NCBI GenBank assembly: GCA_002347095.1
Contig: DDWZ01000027.1
Coordinates: 23,892-87,891, forward strand
Direction: 5' to 3'
Source of the DNA: Desulfobulbaceae bacterium UBA2273
GTDB lineage: Bacteria; Desulfobacterota; Desulfobulbia; Desulfobulbales; Desulfurivibrionaceae
Length of the DNA stretch: 64,000 nucleotides
Part shown: piece by piece, positions 24,873-40,742 of the stretch
Numbering within the stretch: position 1 is the stretch's first letter
Layout: each line of letters opens with the position of its first letter
Notes under the pieces: model-generated
What the model saw: only the letters and a program-made list of their open reading frames with translations
Database searches by the model: none
Told to the model about the DNA's origin: nothing
Translations under genes and position numbers: made by a program

Positions 24873-27800
24873 CAGTTCATCCCCACGGGTGTGGGGAACA
24901 TCCCTTCAATATTTGTCCAAATAGTTACCTCGACGGTTCATCCCCACGGGTGTGGGGAACATTTGTGCGGTTAATGCTTTCATGGTCGTTTCTCCGGTTC
25001 ATCCCCACGGGTGTGGGGAACATCTCGACGAAAACCAACGCAACAGCGTCCTGGTCGGTTCATCCCCACGGGTGTGGGGAACATAGTTGATGACCACGTT
25101 GTTATTCGCGTAATGGCGGTTCATCCCCACGGGTGTGGGGAACATTCCGAGCAATCGTCGTGTCGTATCCATGTTTACGGTTCATCCCCACGGGTGTGGG
25201 GAACATTACCCCCCCAGGTAGCGGAATCGGACGGTAACAGGTTCATCCCCACGGGTGTGGGGAACATTCCCTGTAAATATCGAAGAGCCCAAACAGGATC
25301 GGTTCATCCCCACGGGTGTGGGGAACATCGATATCGCTCCTCACCAACAAAGAAAACGGCCGGTTCATCCCCACGGGTGTGGGGAACATACAATAACCGC
25401 TACCAGATACCTCCACCATGGCGGTTCATCCCCACGGGTGTGGGGAACATGGTGTGCGGCTTCTTTGATGTATCAAGTGTCTCGGTTCATCCCCACGGGT
25501 GTGGGGAACATTTCCCATAATAATATTCCTTGGCGCAATAACTCGGTTCATCCCCACGGGTGTGGGGAACATGAGAACCGGACGGATAGAACGATTCATA
25601 CTGGCGGTTCATCCCCACGGGTGTGGGGAACATGAGAGCATCGCATGGCCAACGCCCGGTTCCGTAGGTTCATCCCCACGGGTGTGGGGAACATGTCTAT
25701 CAGCGTAACCGGCATCAACCCCATAACGGTTCATCCCCACGGGTGTGGGGAACATCCGTCAGTGTTAAGGCTTCCAGCTACATCCCCCGGTTCATCCCCA
25801 CGGGTGTGGGGAACATTAACCACAAGTAAGTATGGCACGTCAGAAATTCGGTTCATCCCCACGGGTGTGGGGAACATGGTCATCTTCAACGAGATCACCA
25901 CCGGCGCCCAGGTTCATCCCCACGGGTGTGGGGAACATTGTTCCCGGTGTATCTGTTGGTCCGTGGCAAACGGTTCATCCCCACGGGTGTGGGGAACATG
26001 TCAATTGAGGCTAACCGCGATATTCAGCTATCGGTTCATCCCCACGGGTGTGGGGAACATACGGTTCCGCTGTCGTAATCCTCTATAGTGATCGGTTCAT
26101 CCCCACGGGTGTGGGGAACATATTTCTTCCCCAAACTCACTTACCGATATTTGCGGTTCATCCCCACGGGTGTGGGGAACATTACATGAACAGACCATCA
26201 GTAAAAGAAGGCGACGGTTCATCCCCACGGGTGTGGGGAACATGCCTTGGCGTTAAGTGTTACCAAGCCCCCCCGCGGTTCATCCCCACGGGTGTGGGGA
26301 ACATGATACGCCCACACAAGCATGGATTTCTCCAGGCGGTTCATCCCCACGGGTGTGGGGAACATTGATATATCTGGCATTTTTCCCGTGACAATGCCGG
26401 TTCATCCCCACGGGTGTGGGGAACATTGTACTGCTGGAGATAGATATCATCAACCATAGCGGTTCATCCCCACGGGTGTGGGGAACATTGCTAATTGGTG
26501 GTTTGAGCTAGAAACTGAGCCGGTTCATCCCCACGGGTGTGGGGAACATTAAGTGTACCTGGGGTCTTTGGTTTGATGGGCCGGTTCATCCCCACGGGTG
26601 TGGGGAACATTCGCGGTAGGGCAGTGCGGCAATCTCACGGCGCGGTTCATCCCCACGGGTGTGGGGAACATACCGTAATCCTCCGCCATCACCGGCACAG
26701 TCACGGTTCATCCCCACGGGTGTGGGGAACATTTTAAAGCTCGTCGGGTTGGCTCCCATGTAGCCGGTTCATCCCCACGGGTGTGGGGAACATGCTATCA
26801 TCTTTGGCAACCTGGACAGGCGGCGCGGTTCATCCCCACGGGTGTGGGGAACATACTGATCCCGTCCTTGCCAGAGAGAGCAATGCCGGTTCATCCCCAC
26901 GGGTGTGGGGAACATTTGCCCCGAGCCCCACCCATGTCTGCCCCGTACGGTTCATCCCCACGGGTGTGGGGAACATTAGCGCCGAAATTCATCGACCGTT
27001 GGGAGGCGCGGTTCATCCCCACGGGTGTGGGGAACATCGGAGGACGAGCAGCGCCGGATCCTCAAGGAGCGGTTCATCCCCACGGGTGTGGGGAACATAT
27101 CGACGGGCACTCGCCCTGTTCATCGGGGAGCGGTTCATCCCCACGGGTGTGGGGAACATCACAGTATTAATCACGACAAAATCGCCCTGATCGGTTCATC
27201 CCCACGGGTGTGGGGAACATAGCAAGACCTTGACGAGTTCAGCGAGGAAGAGCGGTTCATCCCCACGGGTGTGGGGAACATTTTTTGGGGGACGCACCGG
27301 GGAGCATCCCAAACGGTTCATCCCCACGGGTGTGGGGAACATTCTGCCATTGGTCATCAGCAAAGCCGCCTCCGCGGTTCATCCCCACGGGTGTGGGGAA
27401 CATCCATTTTAACGCCCGAAGCCAGGCGACCGCGCCGGTTCATCCCCACGGGTGTGGGGAACATTTGATGGCCCACACCGTGCCGCCGATTGATGGCGGT
27501 TCATCCCCACGGGTGTGGGGAACATCATCAATGTCAACGCCCAGCTGGTCATACTCACGGTTCATCCCCACGGGTGTGGGGAACATTAGGTCGGTTGTAT
27601 CTGGATGAAGCACAACTCCGGTTCATCCCCACGGGTGTGGGGAACATGGCAGTTGGGAATTTAACCTGATACGAGGGGGCGGTTCATCCCCACGGGTGTG
27701 GGGAACATGGGTCGTGGCTATGGGTGTTGCCGGTTTCGTTCGGTTCATCCCCACGGGTGTGGGGAACATTTTTTCCATCGCTCCATCAGCCCGTTGGCCC

Positions 27801-30800
27801 GCGGTTCATCCCCACGGGTGTGGGGAACATGGGGATAAAGAATCCCTGGGGGGAGCGTTTCAGCGGTTCATCCCCACGGGTGTGGGGAACATCGTGCGTT
27901 GATGGTGTCTGCACCGGTGAGGGACGGTTCATCCCCACGGGTGTGGGGAACATTCCGGCATGTGATCTTTGATCCACTCGTAAGCCGGTTCATCCCCACG
28001 GGTGTGGGGAACATGCCGGGTTCCCCGGCGGGCAGTCCACGCCAAGCGGTTCATCCCCACGGGTGTGGGGAACATTCGTTCAAGGCCAGCGACTATGACA
28101 GCAACTCCGGTTCATCCCCACGGGTGTGGGGAACATGCAATCTCGACACCGATGAGGGCCAAGGTGGCCGGTTCATCCCCACGGGTGTGGGGAACATCCA
28201 CTTCATCGAAGAGTCTGACGTGGTGTTCTCGGTTCATCCCCACGGGTGTGGGGAACATCTCTGCCCCGCCCGACTCTGGCCCGCTCATTACGGTTCATCC
28301 CCACGGGTGTGGGGAACATTATGCACCCTGGGGCGTAGATTCAACCGAGGCCGGTTCATCCCCACGGGTGTGGGGAACATTTCACGTTTTTTATATTCGG
28401 ACTGTCAATATGCGGTTCATCCCCACGGGTGTGGGGAACATCTTTTGCCCTTTGGCCTGGAACGCTAAAGGGACGGTTCATCCCCACGGGTGTGGGGAAC
28501 ATGTTTTATTTGTTGGCGCGGAATCAATTATACACGGTTCATCCCCACGGGTGTGGGGAACATTTATGTTTATACCGTCGGGGCTTTTTATCGTTCGGTT
28601 CATCCCCACGGGTGTGGGGAACATTCGCCGGTTTTGGTGTTTTGGAAATTTCTGGACGGTTCATCCCCACGGGTGTGGGGAACATCAGGCGGATTCAGAC
28701 CGCCCCGGAAAGTACACCGGTTCATCCCCACGGGTGTGGGGAACATTACATCGACGATAAGCGAAAAAACACCCTCGCCGGTTCATCCCCACGGGTGTGG
28801 GGAACATTTTTCCTCGAATTTCATCACAAAACCCCCTGTCGGTTCATCCCCACGGGTGTGGGGAACATCCGGAGATTGAACCCTTTGAGATCCCGCCGAG
28901 CGGTTCATCCCCACGGGTGTGGGGAACATGTCCGCAACGGCCTGCTCACCATCCTGCCCAACGGTTCATCCCCACGGGTGTGGGGAACATATTGGCTGCG
29001 CGGTCTACATGGACCTCGACGTCGGTTCATCCCCACGGGTGTGGGGAACATGCCTTGATTGTCTCGTAGTGTTCGGCGGTCATCGGTTCATCCCCACGGG
29101 TGTGGGGAACATTGTGCCGTAAAGATGCGCGCCAGGACGCGGTTCGGTTCATCCCCACGGGTGTGGGGAACATCCGACCTACAAGATGCGGTTAAAATCC
29201 TCTGCCGGTTCATCCCCACGGGTGTGGGGAACATAGTTACGTCGCGCAGCGGCGGAGGCAGTAAGGCGGTTCATCCCCACGGGTGTGGGGAACATCTCTG
29301 CGACGATGGCCGGCCCCTCATATAGATCGGTTCATCCCCACGGGTGTGGGGAACATGACCCACTCTGTATGGACACGATCAACCAAAACGGTTCATCCCC
29401 ACGGGTGTGGGGAACATCTCTTCTTGCTTCCGGCAAAGATGTAGCCGACCGGTTCATCCCCACGGGTGTGGGGAACATCTACCGGAATACGAACCGGCTT
29501 GGTTGGCTCACGGTTCATCCCCACGGGTGTGGGGAACATGTGTGGAACACATGCTGGCCGCCCGGTTGATGGCGGTTCATCCCCACGGGTGTGGGGAACA
29601 TTGGGTACACGAGGACTGGGACGAGCGCAATACCGGTTCATCCCCACGGGTGTGGGGAACATAGCCCGGTTGACCACAGTGTGTCTTTAAGCAACGGTTC
29701 ATCCCCACGGGTGTGGGGAACATACCTGACAGATGCCACCCTGAGAGGGGACAACCGGTTCATCCCCACGGGTGTGGGGAACATAAGAGTGCGCTCGGAT
29801 TTCACTCCGCCGGCGACGGTTCATCCCCACGGGTGTGGGGAACATGAACGGGGAAAGGCAAAGGATTTTGACAGCGTCGGTTCATCCCCACGGGTGTGGG
29901 GAACATCGGTAGAGATTAAACGAACCATGGCCCGCGAGCGGTTCATCCCCACGGGTGTGGGGAACATTACTATCTGGTGGAGAAAAACGTATTGTCCGCC
30001 GGTTCATCCCCACGGGTGTGGGGAACATGCCACCCGTTCCCAATCCGGGAGCATCTCCACCGGTTCATCCCCACGGGTGTGGGGAACATTTGATCCGGCA
30101 TCACTCCAGCCGATTTTGGACCGGTTCATCCCCACGGGTGTGGGGAACATCAATAACCTGGAAATCATAGGCTGATTATGGACGGTTCATCCCCACGGGT
30201 GTGGGGAACATAGAGGCGCAAGGCCGTTTGTCTTTGCGTAGACCGGTTCATCCCCACGGGTGTGGGGAACATGACAGGATGCCGTCATAGTTTTTCTCCC
30301 GCGCCGGTTCATCCCCACGGGTGTGGGGAACATGCAATGTTTACCGCCACCCCGGCAACCATTATCGGTTCATCCCCACGGGTGTGGGGAACATGCAACT
30401 TGAGACTGAATGCGCGTTTCTGGGCTCGGTTCATCCCCACGGGTGTGGGGAACATCAGCGGGTCGAAGGTGGTGGTGAAGTCAGTGCCGGTTCATCCCCA
30501 CGGGTGTGGGGAACATATCCTCGGCGGCACTATCTACCTGGGCCGTCTCGGTTCATCCCCACGGGTGTGGGGAACATTCCTCCACGCCCACACGGACATG
30601 ACGGTGGGGCGGTTCATCCCCACGGGTGTGGGGAACATTGTTGTCGCGCCATAAAAGGAAACGGGGGAGGCGGTTCATCCCCACGGGTGTGGGGAACATT
30701 CCACGGGCTGATTACTTTTTGTCCTGAGTACCGGTTCATCCCCACGGGTGTGGGGAACATTTCGGCTTCGGTGAGGATCGGCATGGAGCGGACGGTTCAT

Positions 30801-31187
30801 CCCCACGGGTGTGGGGAACATACCACGAGCTAGAAGACGGAAGAGAAGTCGAGCGGTTCATCCCCACGGGTGTGGGGAACATTTTCTCCCGGTTTCGGCC
30901 TGATATTACGCTGCCGGTTCATCCCCACGGGTGTGGGGAACATGCGTTTCAGCTTCTCGGAATAAAGAATGTGAACGGTTCATCCCCACGGGTGTGGGGA
31001 ACATTCAACTGAATACGCCACAGCCGCGTACTACACCGGTTCATCCCCACGGGTGTGGGGAACATCGGTAGCCCCTTTCTCAAGGATGTCGTAGTACCGG
31101 TTCATCCCCACGGGTGTGGGGAACATGGTTGCGATAACGTCAAACTTCCCTTCCCCTACGGTTCATCCCCACGGGTGTGGGGAACAT
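24873..31187 (-). CRISPR. Type I-E CRISPR array, about 104 repeats
   Basis: A 29-nt repeat, on the plus strand starting CGGTTCATCC and ending GGGGAACAT, recurs every 61 nt, i.e. 32-nt spacers with a few of 33 nt (for example the one before 27864). The repeat contains a CCCCAC/GTGGGG stem and in reverse complement matches the E. coli I-E repeat pattern (..TTCCCC..GGGGAT.AACCG), so the array is transcribed on the minus strand from the cas2 side. First-to-last start distance (24873 to 31159) gives about 103 periods. All repeats look alike except the one at 24873, which begins CAGTT; this fits a decaying leader-distal end. Confidence 0.98.
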
Positions 31188-31269: not shown

Positions 31270-32473
<1,204 letters not shown>

Positions 32474-32476
32474 GGG

Positions 32477-33313
32477 CTACCCTTTTTTCTTTCTTGTGAG
32501 CCGTTTCCGGCTTTCCGGTTCAGCCAAATAGTTTTCAGGCGTCACCACCTTTCCCCCCGTTTCCTTCTCCAGATTTTCCCGCGCCTCGCCGGCAATCCGC
32601 CCACCCTTGCGGGCTACGATTTTGTTCTTGCCAAAGCCCTGGGCATCCTGCCTGCGGGCGATCTCGGTGGTGGCGGCCTCGCCAAGCATGGAAAAAATCA
32701 GCTCCAGGTCGGTCATGTGATCGCGCAGATTCTCCCGCTCCAGCCCCTTCAGGTTCTTGTATTCCGAAGGGGTGAGGCCAAAGGCGGCCTTGGAAATTTC
32801 AGAGGTCAGGATGGCATACTCAGGTTCCCCGTTGATCCCACGATTTTTCCATTCATCGGTCAGCTCGGCCCGAACAGCGATACCGCGCATCCGCTTTTCG
32901 ATCCAGGCGTCGGAATACCCCTTGGCCCGGTACAACGCCTTGGTCCGTTTGGTGGCCAGCTCCGGGTCCTCGATTTCCTGAACCCGCTCGTAACCGACCT
33001 TGGCCAGCCAGCGCTTGAATGGTTCGGCCTTAGGCGAGGGGATAGACTGGATGATACGAAAGATTCCCTCGGTGTTGGCGCAGTTCGTTGCCCGTTTTTT
33101 TCCGTCTGGGGCCACCATTTCAAGTGGGGTACAATTTGTACCCCAGTAGGACTCCAGCTCAGGATCACGCTGTCGCATCTTCTTGATGTACTGGCGAGGG
33201 TCGGCACTATCGGTCAATGCCTCGACAACATCAGCAACCGAAAACCACCACTCGTTGTTGTGCAAGGTCCGCCGGATTTCCTTGTTCTTGAAAACAACCA
33301 GTTTGTTGTGCAT
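32477..33313 (-). CDS. Bro-N / DinD-like protein embedded in the cas operon
   Basis: 278 residues. Residues ~1-115 form a Bro-N (P22 antirepressor/baculovirus BRO N-terminal) domain: IRRTLHNNEWWFSVADVVEAL, DPRQYIKKMRQRDPEL, FRIIQSIPSPKAEPFKRWLA. The remainder (RMRGIAVRAELTDEWKNRG, EYAILTSEISKAAFGLTPSEYKN, DHMTDLELIFSMLGEAATTEIA, GGRIAGEAREN) matches the DinD-like chromosomal BRO group, as far as I recall it. Not a canonical Cas protein. One nt separates its ATG from the cas6e stop, and 3 nt separate its stop from cas1. DinD of E. coli is SOS-induced and inhibits RecA; a similar role in spacer capture is only inference. The GAGG site lies in the cas6e end. Confidence 0.88.
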   Translation of the reverse strand: MHNKLVVFKNKEIRRTLHNNEWWFSVADVVEALTDSADPRQYIKKMRQRDPELESYWGTNCTPLEMVAPDGKKRATNCANTEGIFRIIQSIPSPKAEPFKRWLAKVGYERVQEIEDPELATKRTKALYRAKGYSDAWIEKRMRGIAVRAELTDEWKNRGINGEPEYAILTSEISKAAFGLTPSEYKNLKGLERENLRDHMTDLELIFSMLGEAATTEIARRQDAQGFGKNKIVARKGGRIAGEARENLEKETGGKVVTPENYLAEPESRKRLTRKKKG

Positions 33314-33314
33314 G

Positions 33315-33923
33315 TCAACACCTCGCCAGCGATAACAGCCCGCAACCGAAGGCTTTGCCGGGGCCGATACCGCTTTGCACCAAGCTTTCCAATTCTGCCG
33401 GATCTACAATTGACAAGAGGCCTTGGAAGCAGACCGGCTGAACTTTTCCGACTAACCTCTCGCTTGCCTTGCGGAAGTTCATGGGCGGTCGTTTTTCCAC
33501 TACAATCGATTCGATCTCTGCGACCCCGCTCAGTTTCCGGATCAGCCATGCCTGCAACTCTTCATCATGAAGCAACGGCACCCGGCACTTCTTGACTCCA
33601 CCTTCGGCATTCAGACGGCCACCTTCATCGTTGATGGTCTTGACCGGATTGGCCAGTAACTTGAACCTGAGCCGTTGCCCATGCTGCAAGGATAACGGAT
33701 AAAGCTTGCTACGGAGTAACTGCGCCTCCCGGACTGTCACGACAATCGGCTCACGAATGGACTGCATTAACACTTCGGCGTTCTGCTGCCCGGAATGCTC
33801 GACGCGAAAAAGAAAATCCCTCCCCGCATCGGATGCAGACGGAAACAGTTTCCACAAAGTTCTGTGGATTTCGTACGGGTTACGGCAAGCCGCCCCGCTG
33901 ATCATGACCTCACTCAGAAACAT
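33315..33923 (-). CDS. cas6e: Cas6e, crRNA-processing endoribonuclease
   Basis: 202 residues, two RAMP folds, with the C-terminal Gly-rich loop GIGPGKAFGCGLLSLA. Cuts pre-crRNA in each repeat and stays bound to the crRNA 3' hairpin. The conserved N-terminal His is present in NPYEIHRTLW. Start set at MFLSEVMISG (33923), giving a 14-nt overlap with cas5e; frames starting further upstream run over cas5e. Confidence 0.93.
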   Translation of the reverse strand: MFLSEVMISGAACRNPYEIHRTLWKLFPSASDAGRDFLFRVEHSGQQNAEVLMQSIREPIVVTVREAQLLRSKLYPLSLQHGQRLRFKLLANPVKTINDEGGRLNAEGGVKKCRVPLLHDEELQAWLIRKLSGVAEIESIVVEKRPPMNFRKASERLVGKVQPVCFQGLLSIVDPAELESLVQSGIGPGKAFGCGLLSLARC

Positions 33924-34590
33924 TGGGACCTCCATACACATAGACGTTACGGGTGGCAAATTGGCGGGGCTGCTGGACCAACGGCACGTCACGCAGGCGA
34001 ATCGTCCGCACCGCTCCCTGCTCTTCGCTGTAGATTGTCCCGCCTACTGGTTCAACCCTCCTTAGTGCTGCCTGAACATTTTCCGCCGCAATCCGGGCCG
34101 CAAAGAGTGGCCGGGCCAGTGGACAACTTCGCCTTCCCAGGTATGGCGTAAAGATTGGGGCCTTGACTGCCGGTTCGAGTTCATCAATTTTGATGGTTGC
34201 CGACAGCGTACTCCAGATCGCGACGGTGTAGGCAGCATCAAAGAGGTATTCCCGCCAGGTCTGAATCGTTTCATGGCTCTTCAACCCGGAGTAATCCACC
34301 CGCGCATCTTGCACCGTGTGATAATCAGTGACCTTGATCATCGGCAATGGGGTCTTGCTCCCGTTGCGTTTCACCAGGAATCGCTCTTCCTTGAGCACGG
34401 CAAAACAAACGCTGTCAGCCAATTGCTGAAGCCGCTGCCTGTTGTCACGGCGAATACCGAGACAGGCCCCAAGCAGGCCAAGAAGAGCGCTTCGGGTTGG
34501 GAAGTTACCGGATGGGCGTTTCCCCTCGAAGGTATGTTCACCCCACGACTGTATTGGACCCTGCAATTTGAGGATGAGATATTCTCTCAT
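33910..34590 (-). CDS. cas5e: Cas5e (CasD), Cascade subunit
   Basis: 226 residues, RAMP fold starting MREYLILKLQGPIQSWGEHTFEGKR with the family's PTRSALLGLLGACLG helix. It caps the 5' handle of crRNA in Cascade. Two nt after cas7e. Confidence 0.95.
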   Translation of the reverse strand: MREYLILKLQGPIQSWGEHTFEGKRPSGNFPTRSALLGLLGACLGIRRDNRQRLQQLADSVCFAVLKEERFLVKRNGSKTPLPMIKVTDYHTVQDARVDYSGLKSHETIQTWREYLFDAAYTVAIWSTLSATIKIDELEPAVKAPIFTPYLGRRSCPLARPLFAARIAAENVQAALRRVEPVGGTIYSEEQGAVRTIRLRDVPLVQQPRQFATRNVYVYGGPNVSE

Positions 34591-34592
34591 GT

Positions 34593-35837
34593 CTATCCCT
34601 CACCGTTGGAACGTACCCATGTCTTAAGCTCCTCAAGGGTTTTCTTGGGAAGAATATCCGAAGGGACTTCTGCCTGACCAAGGAGAAATTCGCCGCATCG
34701 CTCGGTTAACCCATAGCCGCTGTGGACTTGTTGCCAATAAGTATGAAGTGCATTGATTGACGGCTCCTTAAACCCGCTGCCGTTGTAACTCCGAATTGAT
34801 TTTTCAAAGGCATTGGCCAACGACACCGGAATATCGGAGAAAGAAACCATGGCAAGATCAGCCAAGTTATGCGCGGCAAAGGTCTGCTGCTTGGCAGAGG
34901 GGACCACTGTCGCCAGCATGTGGAGCAGGTGGACGGCTATCTCCAGCGCCCGTTCGCGGCTTGCTTTGGTTTCCGGCGATTTCATGTCCGGGAGCAAGCC
35001 AAGGTTCACCTGCAACTGTCGGAGATTCAAGCTGGCATAACGGTAAAAGACTCCACTGGAAAACTCCTGAGTGTCGAGATGACCGGAACCCAACTCCTGA
35101 AGATCATCCACGGCAGTGAACCAGTCGATATCCGAATCAACGCTATGGGTAGTCAATACATGGGCAACGGCAAGAGAGCCGTCAATAGTTGACATCAAGC
35201 CAGCCGTGGCCATGCGCCCGGACAATGCTACATCTACGGCTGACCCAATCGCCTTCAGCAAAGCTTCACGATTGGTTTCGAGCTGCTTATCGATTTTTTT
35301 CCCGAAAGCAGCATCAATAAAATTTTCAAGAGGTTTTTTCTTTTTCCCCTTCTGTTTCTCGAACACCTGCTTTGCCTTCTCCTCTTCCTCGGAGGACAAT
35401 CCTACATCCCTGACCTCCTTGACAATTTGGCAGATAACCTTGAACTCATCCGTTATCCAAGGGGCCACGGCAATTTTCTTGACTGTGCCCTTTTCGCTGT
35501 CGCCTTCTTCCTGAATATCATCATCTTCGTCTTCGCTTGATTTCGTTTTTGCAAATCGCTCAAGTGCTTCCTTGATGGTCTCCTCCTTGAACTCATCTCC
35601 GAGCTGTTCCAAAAATTCATCTTTCAGCAGTTCAAGATCTCGGCTACGAATGCTCGCCTCTCCGAGATGCTGCCGATAGTATTCGCTCTTGCGGATGGCA
35701 CGTTTGAGGCTCTGGCTAGAGATGCGGACCCGGCGCTCGCCGCCGAAAACGGCTGATTTCTGCATGTTCATGTCGTCCCGATTGAGACAGGAAGGGCTGT
35801 GGGAGATGAGGATGTGGAAATTGATGAAATTTTTCAT
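34593..35837 (-). CDS. cas7e: Cas7e (CasC/Cse4), Cascade backbone
   Basis: 414 residues. Begins INFHILISHSPSCLNRDDMN, then the conserved RRVRISSQSLKRAIR. Six copies form the Cascade backbone along the crRNA in E. coli. This version is longer than the E. coli one (363 aa) and has an acidic insertion (residues ~90-120, KTKSSEDEDDDIQEEGDSEKG) and a lysine-rich stretch (QKGKKKKP), an unusual loop. Confidence 0.95.
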   Translation of the reverse strand: MKNFINFHILISHSPSCLNRDDMNMQKSAVFGGERRVRISSQSLKRAIRKSEYYRQHLGEASIRSRDLELLKDEFLEQLGDEFKEETIKEALERFAKTKSSEDEDDDIQEEGDSEKGTVKKIAVAPWITDEFKVICQIVKEVRDVGLSSEEEEKAKQVFEKQKGKKKKPLENFIDAAFGKKIDKQLETNREALLKAIGSAVDVALSGRMATAGLMSTIDGSLAVAHVLTTHSVDSDIDWFTAVDDLQELGSGHLDTQEFSSGVFYRYASLNLRQLQVNLGLLPDMKSPETKASRERALEIAVHLLHMLATVVPSAKQQTFAAHNLADLAMVSFSDIPVSLANAFEKSIRSYNGSGFKEPSINALHTYWQQVHSGYGLTERCGEFLLGQAEVPSDILPKKTLEELKTWVRSNGEG

Positions 35838-35861: not shown

Positions 35862-36326
35862 TCAATCTGTCGGGTTGTTTAGGAAATACTGCTCAAGCAG
35901 GTCGCGCTTGCTCCGGTCATTCCAGTACCAGAGCGTCTCCGCTGCCTTCGGCCAGTTGACAATCGGCTCTACCATTTTGAGAATCCTGCGGAATTGCACC
36001 ATGTCATTGGGCGCGTTGCTGCGAATCACTTGAAAAAGGCGTTTCTCGCTCACCGCTGCCTGGCCACCGCCACGCTTTTTTGCCAGAACAGCGCCGAGGG
36101 AAATTAGCTGATCGGTATGGCCTTTGATGCAAGGAAGACAAAAAATTAACCGTTGAACGGCTTCCTTTTCCCACTCCTTACTGCCCATACCGCTGAAGAG
36201 CCGGTAGAAAGCCGGAATCTCCAGTAATTCAGCAGGGCTGTTCACCCGCCGCAACTCGGCTCGTGGGCCGGGCGCCAACTGTTTCCATTTCTGATACAGT
36301 CTCATGAAATCATCCGTTCGTTCCAT
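35862..36326 (-). CDS. casB: Cse2 (CasB), Cascade small subunit
   Basis: 154 residues, basic and helical, with LISLGAVLAKKRGGG and the RRILKMVEPIVNWPKA segment near the end typical of Cse2. A dimer lines the target-strand side of Cascade. The ATG at 36326 has GGAGG 7 nt upstream; a GTG at 36332 is too close to that site. Confidence 0.92.
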   Translation of the reverse strand: MERTDDFMRLYQKWKQLAPGPRAELRRVNSPAELLEIPAFYRLFSGMGSKEWEKEAVQRLIFCLPCIKGHTDQLISLGAVLAKKRGGGQAAVSEKRLFQVIRSNAPNDMVQFRRILKMVEPIVNWPKAAETLWYWNDRSKRDLLEQYFLNNPTD

Positions 36327-36328
36327 TG

Positions 36329-37843
36329 TCACTCCTCCCCATCCTGTTGCGGTTTAAGTGCTTTCAGGTGTTTTCGTAACGTATTGCGTGAAATTGCCAT
36401 GGTTCTAACCAACTCCGGATCGTTCAAGTAAGGACGGACCGAATTCTCGAAAAGTTCAATATCGAGCAACCGCAGCCTCTCTCCCATTGCCAACAGCACC
36501 GGCGCCGGGTTGGCAAAATCGATACTCGCTAAGCTATCGAGCACGGTATCTTCAGTACGGCGGTAAAATTGTTCTTTTGCCACCTCATGCACTGATACCC
36601 CCGCGCCCTTAACTTTTGACCCCTTGGCATCTTTAAATCCATTGGAGAATACGAACAACGCCTTGTTCAGTGCATCGCGGTAACCGATAGCCAACCCAAC
36701 AAGTTCATGTACAACACCGGTCTTGCTGCTCCAGCCGTCATTGAGAAATATTATTTCGTGGCGGCGCTCAATGATTGACGCTTGGTTGTTTCGATAACCA
36801 CCGATGTTCAACCTGAGGCTCTTTATGACTCCCTGAGCTTGCCGAACAACGGCGGAGGGCTCCTGTCCTTCATTCCTGCCATCAATCTGACGTTGAACGA
36901 CAAAACGGCTCAACTGCGTCCAGGCCGGGGCCGTAGTGGTGAAAGAGACGAATTTTTCTTCACGCACCCCATTCTTGACTTTGGCTATCCTCGCCCCGTG
37001 AGGATGTGGCCAAAGATCAGTTATTGTGTAGTTGAATTTGGCCTTGTTAAACCGATCACACAATCTCTTCGCGACAAAGCCACAGCAACTGCAGGATTGC
37101 TCACCATCGGAAGCAAGAAGTTCTATATGCGCCGGCTGCCAAAAAAGTCCCCGCAGCAAGCCGATTTTCTGGGCAGGTACAACTTCTCCAGCCTTGAGAG
37201 GTTCGATCCAGCTTGGCCGCTGTTTCTTAGTTTCCTGATGCCAAGGGAAGTTTTCAATTATCTTGTCTTCACTGAGAACATTGAGCCAGAGCGTTTGTCG
37301 GAGATGTTCCCCTTGTACCAACGTTGTGACCGGAGCACCCCCACGCAGACTCCCTTTGAACCCCCCGCCAAAACTGGGTGCATTACTAGCTTGGTTAAAC
37401 AATGCAATAGCCGCGCATCCTTCACAGAGACATGCGGCAAGCCCAGGCTCATTGACGAAGCAACTGTTGGTCGCTCCGGTCACCCCAGCCAGCAGCTTGT
37501 CCATGGGGGTAAATTCCTTGGCTTTAACTCCCCGCACCTGCATGAACGGGTAGTCTGGATGGTCGAGCCGGAACCAGTCCTGAAAGGGCGCACATCCGGA
37601 ATCAAATACCTCTGGTGACATGGGTGAAACTATCCGCTGCTTCAGCTCCCCAACATCTTTTGGGGTAAAAATTACCTGGGCCATACAGACGAGCATCTGC
37701 AAGGCCGCAAGCTCCATGTCGTCACGCGGCAGGCACAATTCCCAGTGGCCATCCTCGCACAGCAGCCGACTCAGCGTTATCTTCTCCGGTCGCCCTGCTG
37801 GCAGGAGGCGGACAGGTATCCAAGGTTCCGTCAACAGGTTCAT
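36329..37843 (-). CDS. casA: Cse1 (CasA), Cascade large subunit
   Basis: 504 residues with the opening MNLLTEPWIPVRL and the four-Cys zinc-like motifs CLCEGC and CSCCGF. It recognises PAM and recruits Cas3. Overlaps cas3 by 4 nt and ends 2 nt before the cse2 start. Confidence 0.95.
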   Translation of the reverse strand: MNLLTEPWIPVRLLPAGRPEKITLSRLLCEDGHWELCLPRDDMELAALQMLVCMAQVIFTPKDVGELKQRIVSPMSPEVFDSGCAPFQDWFRLDHPDYPFMQVRGVKAKEFTPMDKLLAGVTGATNSCFVNEPGLAACLCEGCAAIALFNQASNAPSFGGGFKGSLRGGAPVTTLVQGEHLRQTLWLNVLSEDKIIENFPWHQETKKQRPSWIEPLKAGEVVPAQKIGLLRGLFWQPAHIELLASDGEQSCSCCGFVAKRLCDRFNKAKFNYTITDLWPHPHGARIAKVKNGVREEKFVSFTTTAPAWTQLSRFVVQRQIDGRNEGQEPSAVVRQAQGVIKSLRLNIGGYRNNQASIIERRHEIIFLNDGWSSKTGVVHELVGLAIGYRDALNKALFVFSNGFKDAKGSKVKGAGVSVHEVAKEQFYRRTEDTVLDSLASIDFANPAPVLLAMGERLRLLDIELFENSVRPYLNDPELVRTMAISRNTLRKHLKALKPQQDGEE

Positions 37844-40488
37844 TTCATCCTCTCCAGTCCGGTATCTTGCCGATACCGAAGAATCTTGTTTTTCCCCTCC
37901 ATAACATAACCCTCCTCCTGTTTATGCATTTCCAGCCAATAGCGGCCTTCGTCATCCTTCTCCGTCAGTTCCCGCAACCAATAGCCCCAGCGAGCAGGGA
38001 CATTGATGCTGTTCATGGCCAACGCTTCAGCCCGGTGAAAATCATCCAGAACAGCTACCACTTCACCGTCGAGCAGCTGCCGCCCCTGATGGGAATCGAC
38101 AAACGGAATCACCGTCAGTCCCATCTCGCCCTCACGGGTAAGAGCAGTCACTGCCTCGTCGGTATCGGCAAAGGGATTCATCGCTGAATCGATTTGCTGT
38201 CTCGCCTTGCACCGTGAGACAAAGAGTTCGTCACAGAACATCCCATGAGCGTTCGTTATTGATTTCGGCTCATCCGGCCACGACTCTTCCTGATAGACCG
38301 CCTCGATCCACTCCCGATAGGCCACGGGGAAAACAATTTTCTCCTCAGGAGCAGCGGCAAGTCTTTGCTCCGTGCGCCAAAGCACACGGGTGTTTCCGTA
38401 GATCTTCCCGGTATAACCGTAGTCCCCATCCAAGGACAGCAGGACTGTGCAAAACGGTTCTGTAAAACCCTTCGGGCGAGTATCGCGTCTATGGCGGTGC
38501 AGCCTTCCCAACCGCTGAAAGAGTAAATCTACCGGACAAAGCTGAGTAACGATCCAGTCAAAATCGACATCGAGCGACTGCTCGACCACCTGCGTTGCCA
38601 CCAGTATCCTTCCTATATCGCGATTACCCAGGGGGCCAAAAAGATTGATGATCTTTCCTTCAATGGTCTGCCGATCCTTAAAACGAAACCGGGAGTGAAA
38701 GAGATCAACCGGGGCCGTTGTCGTTGCACGCAAAAGGCTGGCGACCCGCTGCGCGTCATTGACCAGATTGCAGATGACCGCCACCTGCGCCCCTCCATCT
38801 GCCGCCATGGCGATGCGCTGAAGGAGAGAATCGTCCAGCTCCAATTTGCTGGCCCGCAGACATTCAATCCCCACCTCGTTGCTCGCTTGTTGCTCATCTT
38901 TTCTGAGCGAAAAACATATCGGTTCAGCCGCGCCGACCCAGGTGATCAGTGGGTAGGGTGTGGCTTTGTTACCGTTGCCCCCACAGCCAGGCTGCCATAC
39001 TTCACAAAGTTGTTGTTTCTGGGCGGCTGGCAGAGTTGCCGACAAAAGTATGGCCGAGGCCCCAGCGCCACACTGCTGCCGCAACACCTCTTCGAGCAGG
39101 CCGTACATGTAAGCATCGTAGGCATGAACCTCATCAACAATCAAAACACTGCGGCCAACACCGAAACTCCGCACAAAGCGGTGTTTGACCGGCAACACGG
39201 AGATGAGCACCTGATCGATAGTGCAAACGCCGATCTGGCCGAAGAAGATCCGCTTGCGACTTTCCGCCAGCCATGAACTGCATTGCACCCAGCCGTCTGG
39301 CTCGCTGGTATCAGCCAGCCCCTTATATTTGAGTTGCGAGAAGTCCTTGTTGAAGCGAGCCGAGCCGTGGGCCAACAGCAGGTTTGGCGACTCATCAAAA
39401 AGTTTGCCCGCCAGTTTTTCCAAGCGCCCCAACATAGCATTCGCGGTGGCTTGAGTCGGCAAGGCAAATATTAGGGAATCAGCCAACCCGGTCGCCAGCA
39501 AACGCCAGGCATACGCAAGAGCAGCCTCGGTCTTGCCGGAACCGGTTGGTGCCTCAATAACGGTCAGGCCGGGTTCAAGCGGCAATTCGTTAATTCTGGC
39601 TTGCAAAGGACGCGGGTTGACCGAGGCCGGAAGTAAAGATCTTACCCCGTCGTAACTCCTGGCTGCTCCCTCAATACCCGATTGTTTAAAGACACGACGG
39701 GCATCCTGCGTAAACTTTCGCTCGAAATATTCCTTCAGCGGTTCCGGGATTTGCTGGAAGGTAAAATTGATTTCATCACACCGTGAGGCAAGCCAGTCAG
39801 CCACGGAACATAATCCGGCCATCATTGGTGATAAAACAGGAGGGAAGTCATTGATCGAGAGCGCTACCGGTTGGAGGTAGAGTTTTTCAAGCGCCGTCAA
39901 CCAATCACGGCGTGCTATTCGATCAACCTCGGCAAATCGACTATCGCAAATTGACGGCAACGCAGCATCGGCAACATATTCCGCCTTTTTTATATGCCCG
40001 TGGTGACCGGCTACTGCCTCGATCCAAGATTTGCACGTCAGCCATTGCGAAGGCTCACACTCATCTATGAAAAGGGTATTTGGGGGTTTATCGCAGCCTG
40101 AGATTGCAAAAAAATCCTGCTTGAACCATGACAATCCGTTTTCGCCGTGTCGGTAGCTCAGACAATCGAATTGCGACGGAAGTGGCAACCCACGTCCGGC
40201 AAGAGGGTGAAGTAATTGCCAAACGGCGGGAACCTTGTGCTGAAAACGAAGGTCAAACTTTCCGTAATCATGGAGAGTGGCAAAAAAGAGCACCCAGGCC
40301 CGCATCTGCTCTTCTGGATATTTGGCACCATCACAAAAGCTACGACGGATCGCCGGGCTGGCATTCCACCAGACTGCCACCACAGCCGCCACATCCAAGC
40401 AGTGATAGGGAAGGAGGTGATAACGGATCGGCTTGCCTTCTTCGGCCTTTTCCGCCTTCCCCCAATATTTATAGTAGGTGGCAACCAT
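37840..40488 (-). CDS. cas3: Cas3, HD nuclease-helicase
   Basis: 882 residues. N-terminal HD nuclease: His in LPYHCLDV, HD in TLHDYGKFD, and AGHHGHIKK. SF2 helicase follows: Walker A EAPTGSGKTEAAL, DEVH in VLIVDEVHAYD, SAT motif LLSATLP, and VATQVVEQSLDVDFDW (motif V). Unwinds and degrades target DNA after Cascade recruitment. First gene of the operon with ~470 nt upstream; GAGGG precedes the start. Confidence 0.96.
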   Translation of the reverse strand: MVATYYKYWGKAEKAEEGKPIRYHLLPYHCLDVAAVVAVWWNASPAIRRSFCDGAKYPEEQMRAWVLFFATLHDYGKFDLRFQHKVPAVWQLLHPLAGRGLPLPSQFDCLSYRHGENGLSWFKQDFFAISGCDKPPNTLFIDECEPSQWLTCKSWIEAVAGHHGHIKKAEYVADAALPSICDSRFAEVDRIARRDWLTALEKLYLQPVALSINDFPPVLSPMMAGLCSVADWLASRCDEINFTFQQIPEPLKEYFERKFTQDARRVFKQSGIEGAARSYDGVRSLLPASVNPRPLQARINELPLEPGLTVIEAPTGSGKTEAALAYAWRLLATGLADSLIFALPTQATANAMLGRLEKLAGKLFDESPNLLLAHGSARFNKDFSQLKYKGLADTSEPDGWVQCSSWLAESRKRIFFGQIGVCTIDQVLISVLPVKHRFVRSFGVGRSVLIVDEVHAYDAYMYGLLEEVLRQQCGAGASAILLSATLPAAQKQQLCEVWQPGCGGNGNKATPYPLITWVGAAEPICFSLRKDEQQASNEVGIECLRASKLELDDSLLQRIAMAADGGAQVAVICNLVNDAQRVASLLRATTTAPVDLFHSRFRFKDRQTIEGKIINLFGPLGNRDIGRILVATQVVEQSLDVDFDWIVTQLCPVDLLFQRLGRLHRHRRDTRPKGFTEPFCTVLLSLDGDYGYTGKIYGNTRVLWRTEQRLAAAPEEKIVFPVAYREWIEAVYQEESWPDEPKSITNAHGMFCDELFVSRCKARQQIDSAMNPFADTDEAVTALTREGEMGLTVIPFVDSHQGRQLLDGEVVAVLDDFHRAEALAMNSINVPARWGYWLRELTEKDDEGRYWLEMHKQEEGYVMEGKNKILRYRQDTGLERMK

Positions 40489-40742
40489 AGATGGCCCTCT
40501 TCTTTAAAGCACAAAATCCCTGTCAGGATTCACAGTATTGCACCCCGAAAGTTCCGGCAAGAAACAAAGGGATTCCCCGTAGTTTTTCCGTATCCCGAGG
40601 CCGGAAATTTCCCCGACCATGTGCAGAGCATACCACCCCACCTGGGACAAATGGTGTCCTAGATGGGCAAAAAAAATGAGACCAGCCGAGGGGAGTTACG
40701 AAAGGCGGGAGACAGCGGGAAACCCAGGGAGCCGAAAATATA

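Follow-up and report, generated by a model that had tools for sequence, protein, structure and literature searches.

A Bro-N/DinD-C protein gene recurring beside the adaptation genes of type I CRISPR-Cas: a probable functional accessory of these operons

DinD of Escherichia coli is an inhibitor of RecA, acting on RecA strand exchange. The PDC families were proposed from embedding within immune operons, as set out in PMC10855318 and PMC12988326 with reference to Payne et al. 2024, and the genes tgvAB, embedded in a type I restriction-modification (RM) cluster of Vibrio cholerae, are described in PMC11411939 as protecting alone, against phages with modified DNA. DdrC of Deinococcus radiodurans, placed in a radiation/desiccation regulon (PMC8533742), is described in PMC5436757 as binding DNA without sequence choice, shielding it from nucleases, and annealing and circularising it. 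Here we report a computational analysis of a gene encoding a Bro-N/DinD-C protein that lies between cas6e and cas1e in a type I-E CRISPR-Cas locus of Desulfobulbaceae bacterium UBA2273. The stretch analysed, hereafter the window, comprises 64,000 nt (contig DDWZ01000027.1, positions 23,892-87,891; assembly GCA_002347095.1). The gene is probably a working accessory part of CRISPR operons and not a stray insert, and we tentatively favour the reading that its PDC-S13 lineage has settled in type I CRISPR-Cas as an accessory, with a protein that would act on broken DNA.

The window's type I-E locus is complete, running cas3, cse1, cse2, cas7e, cas5e, cas6e, the Bro-N gene, cas1e, cas2e and a CRISPR array, and each of the 8 cas genes flanking the Bro-N gene scores above its own NCBIfam cut-off. 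As the sequence-only reading had described, an intact full-length gene is fitted between cas6e and cas1 with junctions of 1 nt (from the end of the cas6e stop codon, 33315, to the Bro-N ATG, 33313) and 3 nt (from the end of the Bro-N stop codon, 32477, to the cas1e ATG, 32473); the open reading frame (ORF) starts with ATG and runs for 278 codons with no internal stop. Since cas6e carries GAGGTG in its final codons and the Bro-N gene carries AAGGG in its own, the ribosome sites of the Bro-N gene and of cas1e appear to sit inside the respective preceding gene, as also suggested earlier; the motifs are located there, and their function is presumptive. The PADLOC PDC-S13 profile PDLC04920 spans residues 3-273 of the 278 (E 4.9e-122), and the Bro-N domain PF02498 covers residues 12-105 (E 9e-15; 55.5 bits vs a gathering score of 25.6). 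PHROGs returned a family without known function (PHROG_15286) together with weaker antirepressor matches to the N-terminal part, the NCBIfam profile search gave no match for the protein, and the PDB searched by sequence gave no useful one. Relatives are abundant, at least 8000 at E 0.001 (all 8000 candidates scored were relatives), and the window's whole genome holds a single match at E 0.001. Between the window and locus L005, whose Bro-N protein is 95% identical, nonsynonymous divergence (dN) was 0.025 and synonymous divergence (dS) 0.741, a ratio of 0.034 that indicates purifying selection on the Bro-N gene; the ratio for cas1 in the same pair was 0.011.

From a scan of named genomes, the best 80 of 534 relatives were kept, a set in which best matches over-represent the window protein's own branch. 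Cas loci hold 33 of these 80 (11 I-E, 20 I-C, 1 I-G and 1 I-D), with cas genes labelled by tblastn using one or two references per family, so that distant cas types may escape, and with the types of representatives confirmed by profiles. The Bro-N gene is codirectional with the cas genes in 33/33 and adjoins adaptation genes in 27, standing directly before cas1 in 17 (in L046, a 66-residue cas1 stub), directly before cas4 in 4, and separated from cas1 or cas4 by another embedded gene in 6; in 6 it precedes cas3 or cas5 at the 5' end. The hosts include Thermodesulfobacteriota, Myxococcota-labelled 'Deltaproteobacteria', Nitrospirota and one Bacteroidota. A less biased sample, 297 genomes of the window's phylum, gave a match in 33, with 43 matches in total after two split genes were joined (45 rows), 34 of them longer than 700 nt. 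At least 12 of the 43 lie within 10 kb of cas1, vs 0.2-0.55 expected, and at least 7 within 2 kb, vs 0.04-0.11 expected, the window and one cas1-stub locus being included in both counts. Recurrence across hosts had been named beforehand as the test of stable incorporation, and its outcome, with cas-linked copies in several host groups and four type I subtypes, together with the phylum enrichment and the single tree branch described below, upholds that proposal; a single-strain oddity is ruled out by the 33 loci.

Two of the loci deserve separate mention. At L046:10001-11042, on one contig with L160, the Bro-N gene is followed by the first 66 codons of cas1e, I-E effector genes are absent, and 6-9 kb upstream lie distant matches to cas1 and cas4 (21-25%) along with one resembling a nucleotidyltransferase; the arrangement suggests an I-E locus that has decayed around a still intact Bro-N gene. 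At L154:1073-1636 a 187-aa gene, nucleotidyltransferase-like by eye and matched by neither PADLOC nor Pfam, lies between the Bro-N gene and cas1e.

The relatives were then placed on a quick LG+G4 tree (95 rows, 181 backbone columns, 13/92 branches starred), same-genome duplicates (L160, L152, L167, L168) being omitted, as were five of the 80 named loci in which the gene is broken or uncalled (L023, which is CRISPR-linked, and L035, L036, L043 and L063). All 39 CRISPR-linked rows fall in one 44-row branch (support 89), and none is among the 51 rows outside; the non-CRISPR rows within the branch are L019, L029, L052, L166 and L171. With the first labels, the CRISPR label changes 8 times on the tree (19-32 in shuffles), and with labels refined between the two tests, once more flanking DNA was seen, it changes 4 times (23-36 in shuffles); among delta-type hosts only, there are 2 changes vs 10-16 shuffled. 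Inside the lineage, by comparison, I-E and I-C homes are distributed at random (11 changes, shuffle mean 11.6). This suggests that the lineage moves between CRISPR types and seldom out of CRISPR. One route of such transfer is visible, judging from the sequences, in the window and L005, whose DNA is shared from the Bro-N ATG onwards, cas1, cas2 and the array included, while their effector genes are only about 30% alike and differ in order.

These distributions bear directly on the notion that the gene is a phage antirepressor stranded in the operon, which we regard as scarcely tenable. PHROG_15286 exists, and scanning 2.9 million viral contigs by pattern yielded 8 relatives, 46-70% identical; against this, just 4 of 50,697 phage records contain a match (best 52%), and this rarity, the recurrence in cas loci, the tree branch and purifying selection led us to reject the explanation. 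Plasmid records gave matches in 10 of 72,556 (best 54%). The link to the SOS response raised by the sequence-only reading was not supported. The sole perfect CTGT-N8-ACAG palindrome in the window lies at 40520-40535, 31 nt before cas3, and the genome-wide count of this E. coli-type consensus, from which the host LexA operator may differ, does not exceed chance (19 sites vs 18 for the reversed control); both recA (C13:79342) and the one LexA-like place (C2:118727) lack such a site. An SOS operator of this type before cas3 was accordingly rejected.

The place before cas1 is shared with other families. Among 20 loci sampled out of 36 places by cas1e similarity, the window left out, there were 19 I-E operons and the L160 stub; in the 19 operons the gene before cas1 was Bro-N in 3, and RhuM, a four-helix bundle, Fic and YhcG in 1 each, with an unassigned ORF or gap in 2 and no assigned gene in 10. 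In 20 of 26 first-ranked I-C places (G246, G017, G119, G145, G201 and G165 left out), RhuM was found in 2, a four-helix protein in 2 and a 75-residue Bro-N piece in 1 (L183); at three of the six left-out places a full-length Bro-N gene occurs within 10 kb. Presence in 3/19 I-E operons (window aside) and 3/26 first-ranked I-C places (full-length, within 10 kb) is not the distribution of a core Cas gene. The slot RhuM and YhcG proteins match PDC profiles, and the slot Fic matches SoFic and PDC-S04. Some I-C operons (L027, L058 and L061) contain three or four embedded accessory genes; in these three we observed embedded Fic, RhuM, YhcG, four-helix and Bro-N genes, some at the cas7/cas4 and cas4/cas1 junctions. 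With several embedded families using the slot, the present case belongs to a kind already known, that of accessory genes embedded within immune operons. Outside CRISPR, the Bro-N gene of L166 is embedded in a type I RM operon, with hsdM on one side and hsdS on the other, and a neighbour tally of 89 proteins at loci then taken as non-CRISPR (one fragment row dropped; L016, L040, L061, L066, L162 and L163 later found CRISPR-linked) showed RM parts but also ordinary genes.

The chief rival, and a possible one, is an independent embedded defence gene: a stand-alone anti-phage protein would gain expression and co-transfer from the operon and would not act on Cas proteins. The RhuM, Fic, YhcG and four-helix-bundle genes in the same slot, the L166 copy, the proposal of PDC families by embedding and the Vibrio genes that protect alone all agree with it, but a nearly CRISPR-only branch that crosses CRISPR types exceeds what free riding would lead one to expect. 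Improbable in our judgement is a PrrC-like guard or back-up effector, kept silent by the Cas complex and turning on the cell or the phage once an anti-CRISPR, for instance, blocks that complex. Its interchangeable neighbours would suit such a device, since they include Fic and, at L015:4184-5179 in the cas1 slot, a protein joining a RhuM N-terminal part to a Fic C-terminal part, and passages of PMC3710099 propose RhuM and Doc/Fic as toxins beside RM genes; a variable segment on a fixed backbone would suit it as well. The window's protein, however, matches no toxin family in Pfam, NCBIfam, PHROGs or PADLOC profiles, and its nearest solved fold is that of a DNA-damage protein. The L015 protein suggests in its own right that the recognition half may combine with other effector halves.

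That nearest fold is DdrC, which matches the C-terminal domain of the window's protein and apparently also, in the same order, its N-terminal one; absence of other proteins from the fold matches was not taken to exclude them. The relative position of the domains is unlike that in DdrC, and a profile of 59 relatives run against PDB sequences did not find DdrC. As modelled, the window's protein has two domains and a DdrC-like fold, and it presumably binds DNA. Its N-terminal domain also resembles the DNA-binding domains of Mbp1 and Dachshund, and viral models gave 38 fold matches below 1e-3 (best 1.9e-8), the top ones including phage Bro-N, KilA-N and repressor-domain proteins. Together with the Bro-N domain and the phage antirepressor families that match the N-terminal part, these resemblances would fit an antirepressor-like regulator of cas operon transcription. 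The gene sits mid-operon, however, and residues 35-79 vary among relatives on a conserved backbone: between L002 and L021 this segment differs although the upstream cas genes remain 73-97% alike in DNA, which is unsuited to a fixed operator. With an operator search covering CTGT-N8-ACAG only, we consider a regulator very unlikely. Variation is also seen in residues 5-34 (64%) and in the C-terminal tail. The stretch from residue 35 to 79 has the look of a recognition segment that can be exchanged, the exchange being read from mosaic identities and not from formal recombination statistics.

Considering DdrC's activities on DNA and the inhibition of RecA by DinD, a broken-DNA protein is the simplest common reading, and one that draws in both homes of the family, since CRISPR and restriction systems alike cut DNA. 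The computations show the family, the match in fold, the recurrence, the lineage, the selection and the variability of the segment; from these we infer DNA-end binding and an effect on defence or adaptation. In this proposal the lineage, kept under selection and passed among I-E, I-C, I-G and I-D loci, mostly beside adaptation genes, would encode a protein that binds broken or single-stranded DNA. Its conserved helical C-terminal domain would do the general work of holding or shielding DNA ends and interfering with RecA-type repair or with nucleases, and recognition would be tuned by the swappable Bro-N segment. Made together with Cas1-Cas2, the protein might act on ends arising from Cas3, restriction or phage replication, so that either repair of cut invader DNA would be prevented or the ends would be preserved as spacer material.

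The place beside cas1 or cas4 suggests action on the ends used for adaptation, and a role in spacer capture, one of those proposed from the sequence, is plausible. A more specific version appears unlikely to us: a DdrC-like DNA-break protein turned dedicated adaptation accessory would serve the Cas1-Cas2 or Cas4-Cas1 of unrelated type I systems by capturing or shielding free ends, and exchange of its segment, in the manner of restriction-enzyme target-recognition domains, would let operons sample different DNA or evade different phage inhibitors. Action on cut invader DNA generally fits the data as well as adaptation-specific action does, and the slot before cas1, not being specific to the Bro-N family, speaks for the embedded-defence rival. 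To our knowledge, few accessory factors of spacer acquisition have been described beyond Cas4 and some fused enzymes. A lineage kept in I-E, I-C, I-G and I-D loci with a DNA-break-type fold would thus offer a handle on how DNA ends are chosen and kept for adaptation, and, if the reading is true, DinD and DdrC proteins gain a common setting in anti-phage immunity. Embedded PDC genes as a kind are already known; the literature searched contained no description of a CRISPR lineage spanning types, of its place on the adaptation side, of the exchangeable segment or of the DdrC-like fold, and the Payne et al. 2024 preprint, outside that search, may report part of these.

Table 1. Coordinates of the Bro-N gene, its segments and the surrounding CRISPR-Cas features in the window
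Feature	Position	Strand	Details
Bro-N / DinD-C protein gene (PADLOC PDC-S13)	32477..33313	-	278 aa, between cas6e and cas1e; ORF call, Pfam, PHROGs, PADLOC
Variable, apparently exchangeable Bro-N domain segment, residues 35-79	33077..33211	-	identity comparison of relatives
Helical C-terminal domain, residues 106-260	32534..32998	-	sequence similar to E. coli DinD, fold similar to DdrC
cas1e	31550..32473	-	TIGR03638, E 4e-114
cas2e	31270..31569	-	TIGR01873; start placed at the ATG preceding LVIVVENAP
cas6e	33315..33944	-	TIGR01907; start approximate
cas5e	33910..34590	-	NCBIfam
cas7e	34593..35837	-	NCBIfam
cse2	35862..36332	-	NCBIfam
cse1	36329..37843	-	NCBIfam
cas3	37840..40488	-	NCBIfam
CRISPR array, 104 repeats, 61-62 nt period	24874..31187	unassigned	repeat search

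Compared with the systems described, the locus resembles tgvAB of V. cholerae in that accessory genes lie inside an immune operon, but there the proteins are others and the operon is a type I RM cluster. With DdrC the window's protein shares the fold of the C-terminal domain and apparently the order of the two domains; the sequence profile showed no similarity between them, the domains are placed differently, and DdrC belongs to a radiation/desiccation regulon. E. coli DinD is a PDC-S13 member by PADLOC profiles, similar in length (274 vs 278 aa), and its C-terminal domain is homologous by profile, PDLC04920 matching residues 122-250 (E 2.2e-16). The kinship with DinD claimed from the sequence therefore stands, at the sequence level, for that domain only: the DinD-type profile PDLC04919 covers only residues 148-277 of the window's protein (E 2.8e-6), BLASTP between the two is weak (E 0.019), and the N-terminal half of DinD matches the RhuM-type PDC-S05 (5e-29). 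Moreover, dinD of MG1655 is not among defence genes. Separately, E. coli DinD (L181:5761-6585) aligns with positions 6-267 of a type I HsdS profile 717 positions long, which hints at DinD-HsdS fusions. The closest described group is the PADLOC candidate family PDC-S13 itself, which the window's protein matches over nearly its full length, and to which the CRISPR branch, the place on the adaptation side, the apparently exchangeable segment and the DdrC-like fold would be additions.
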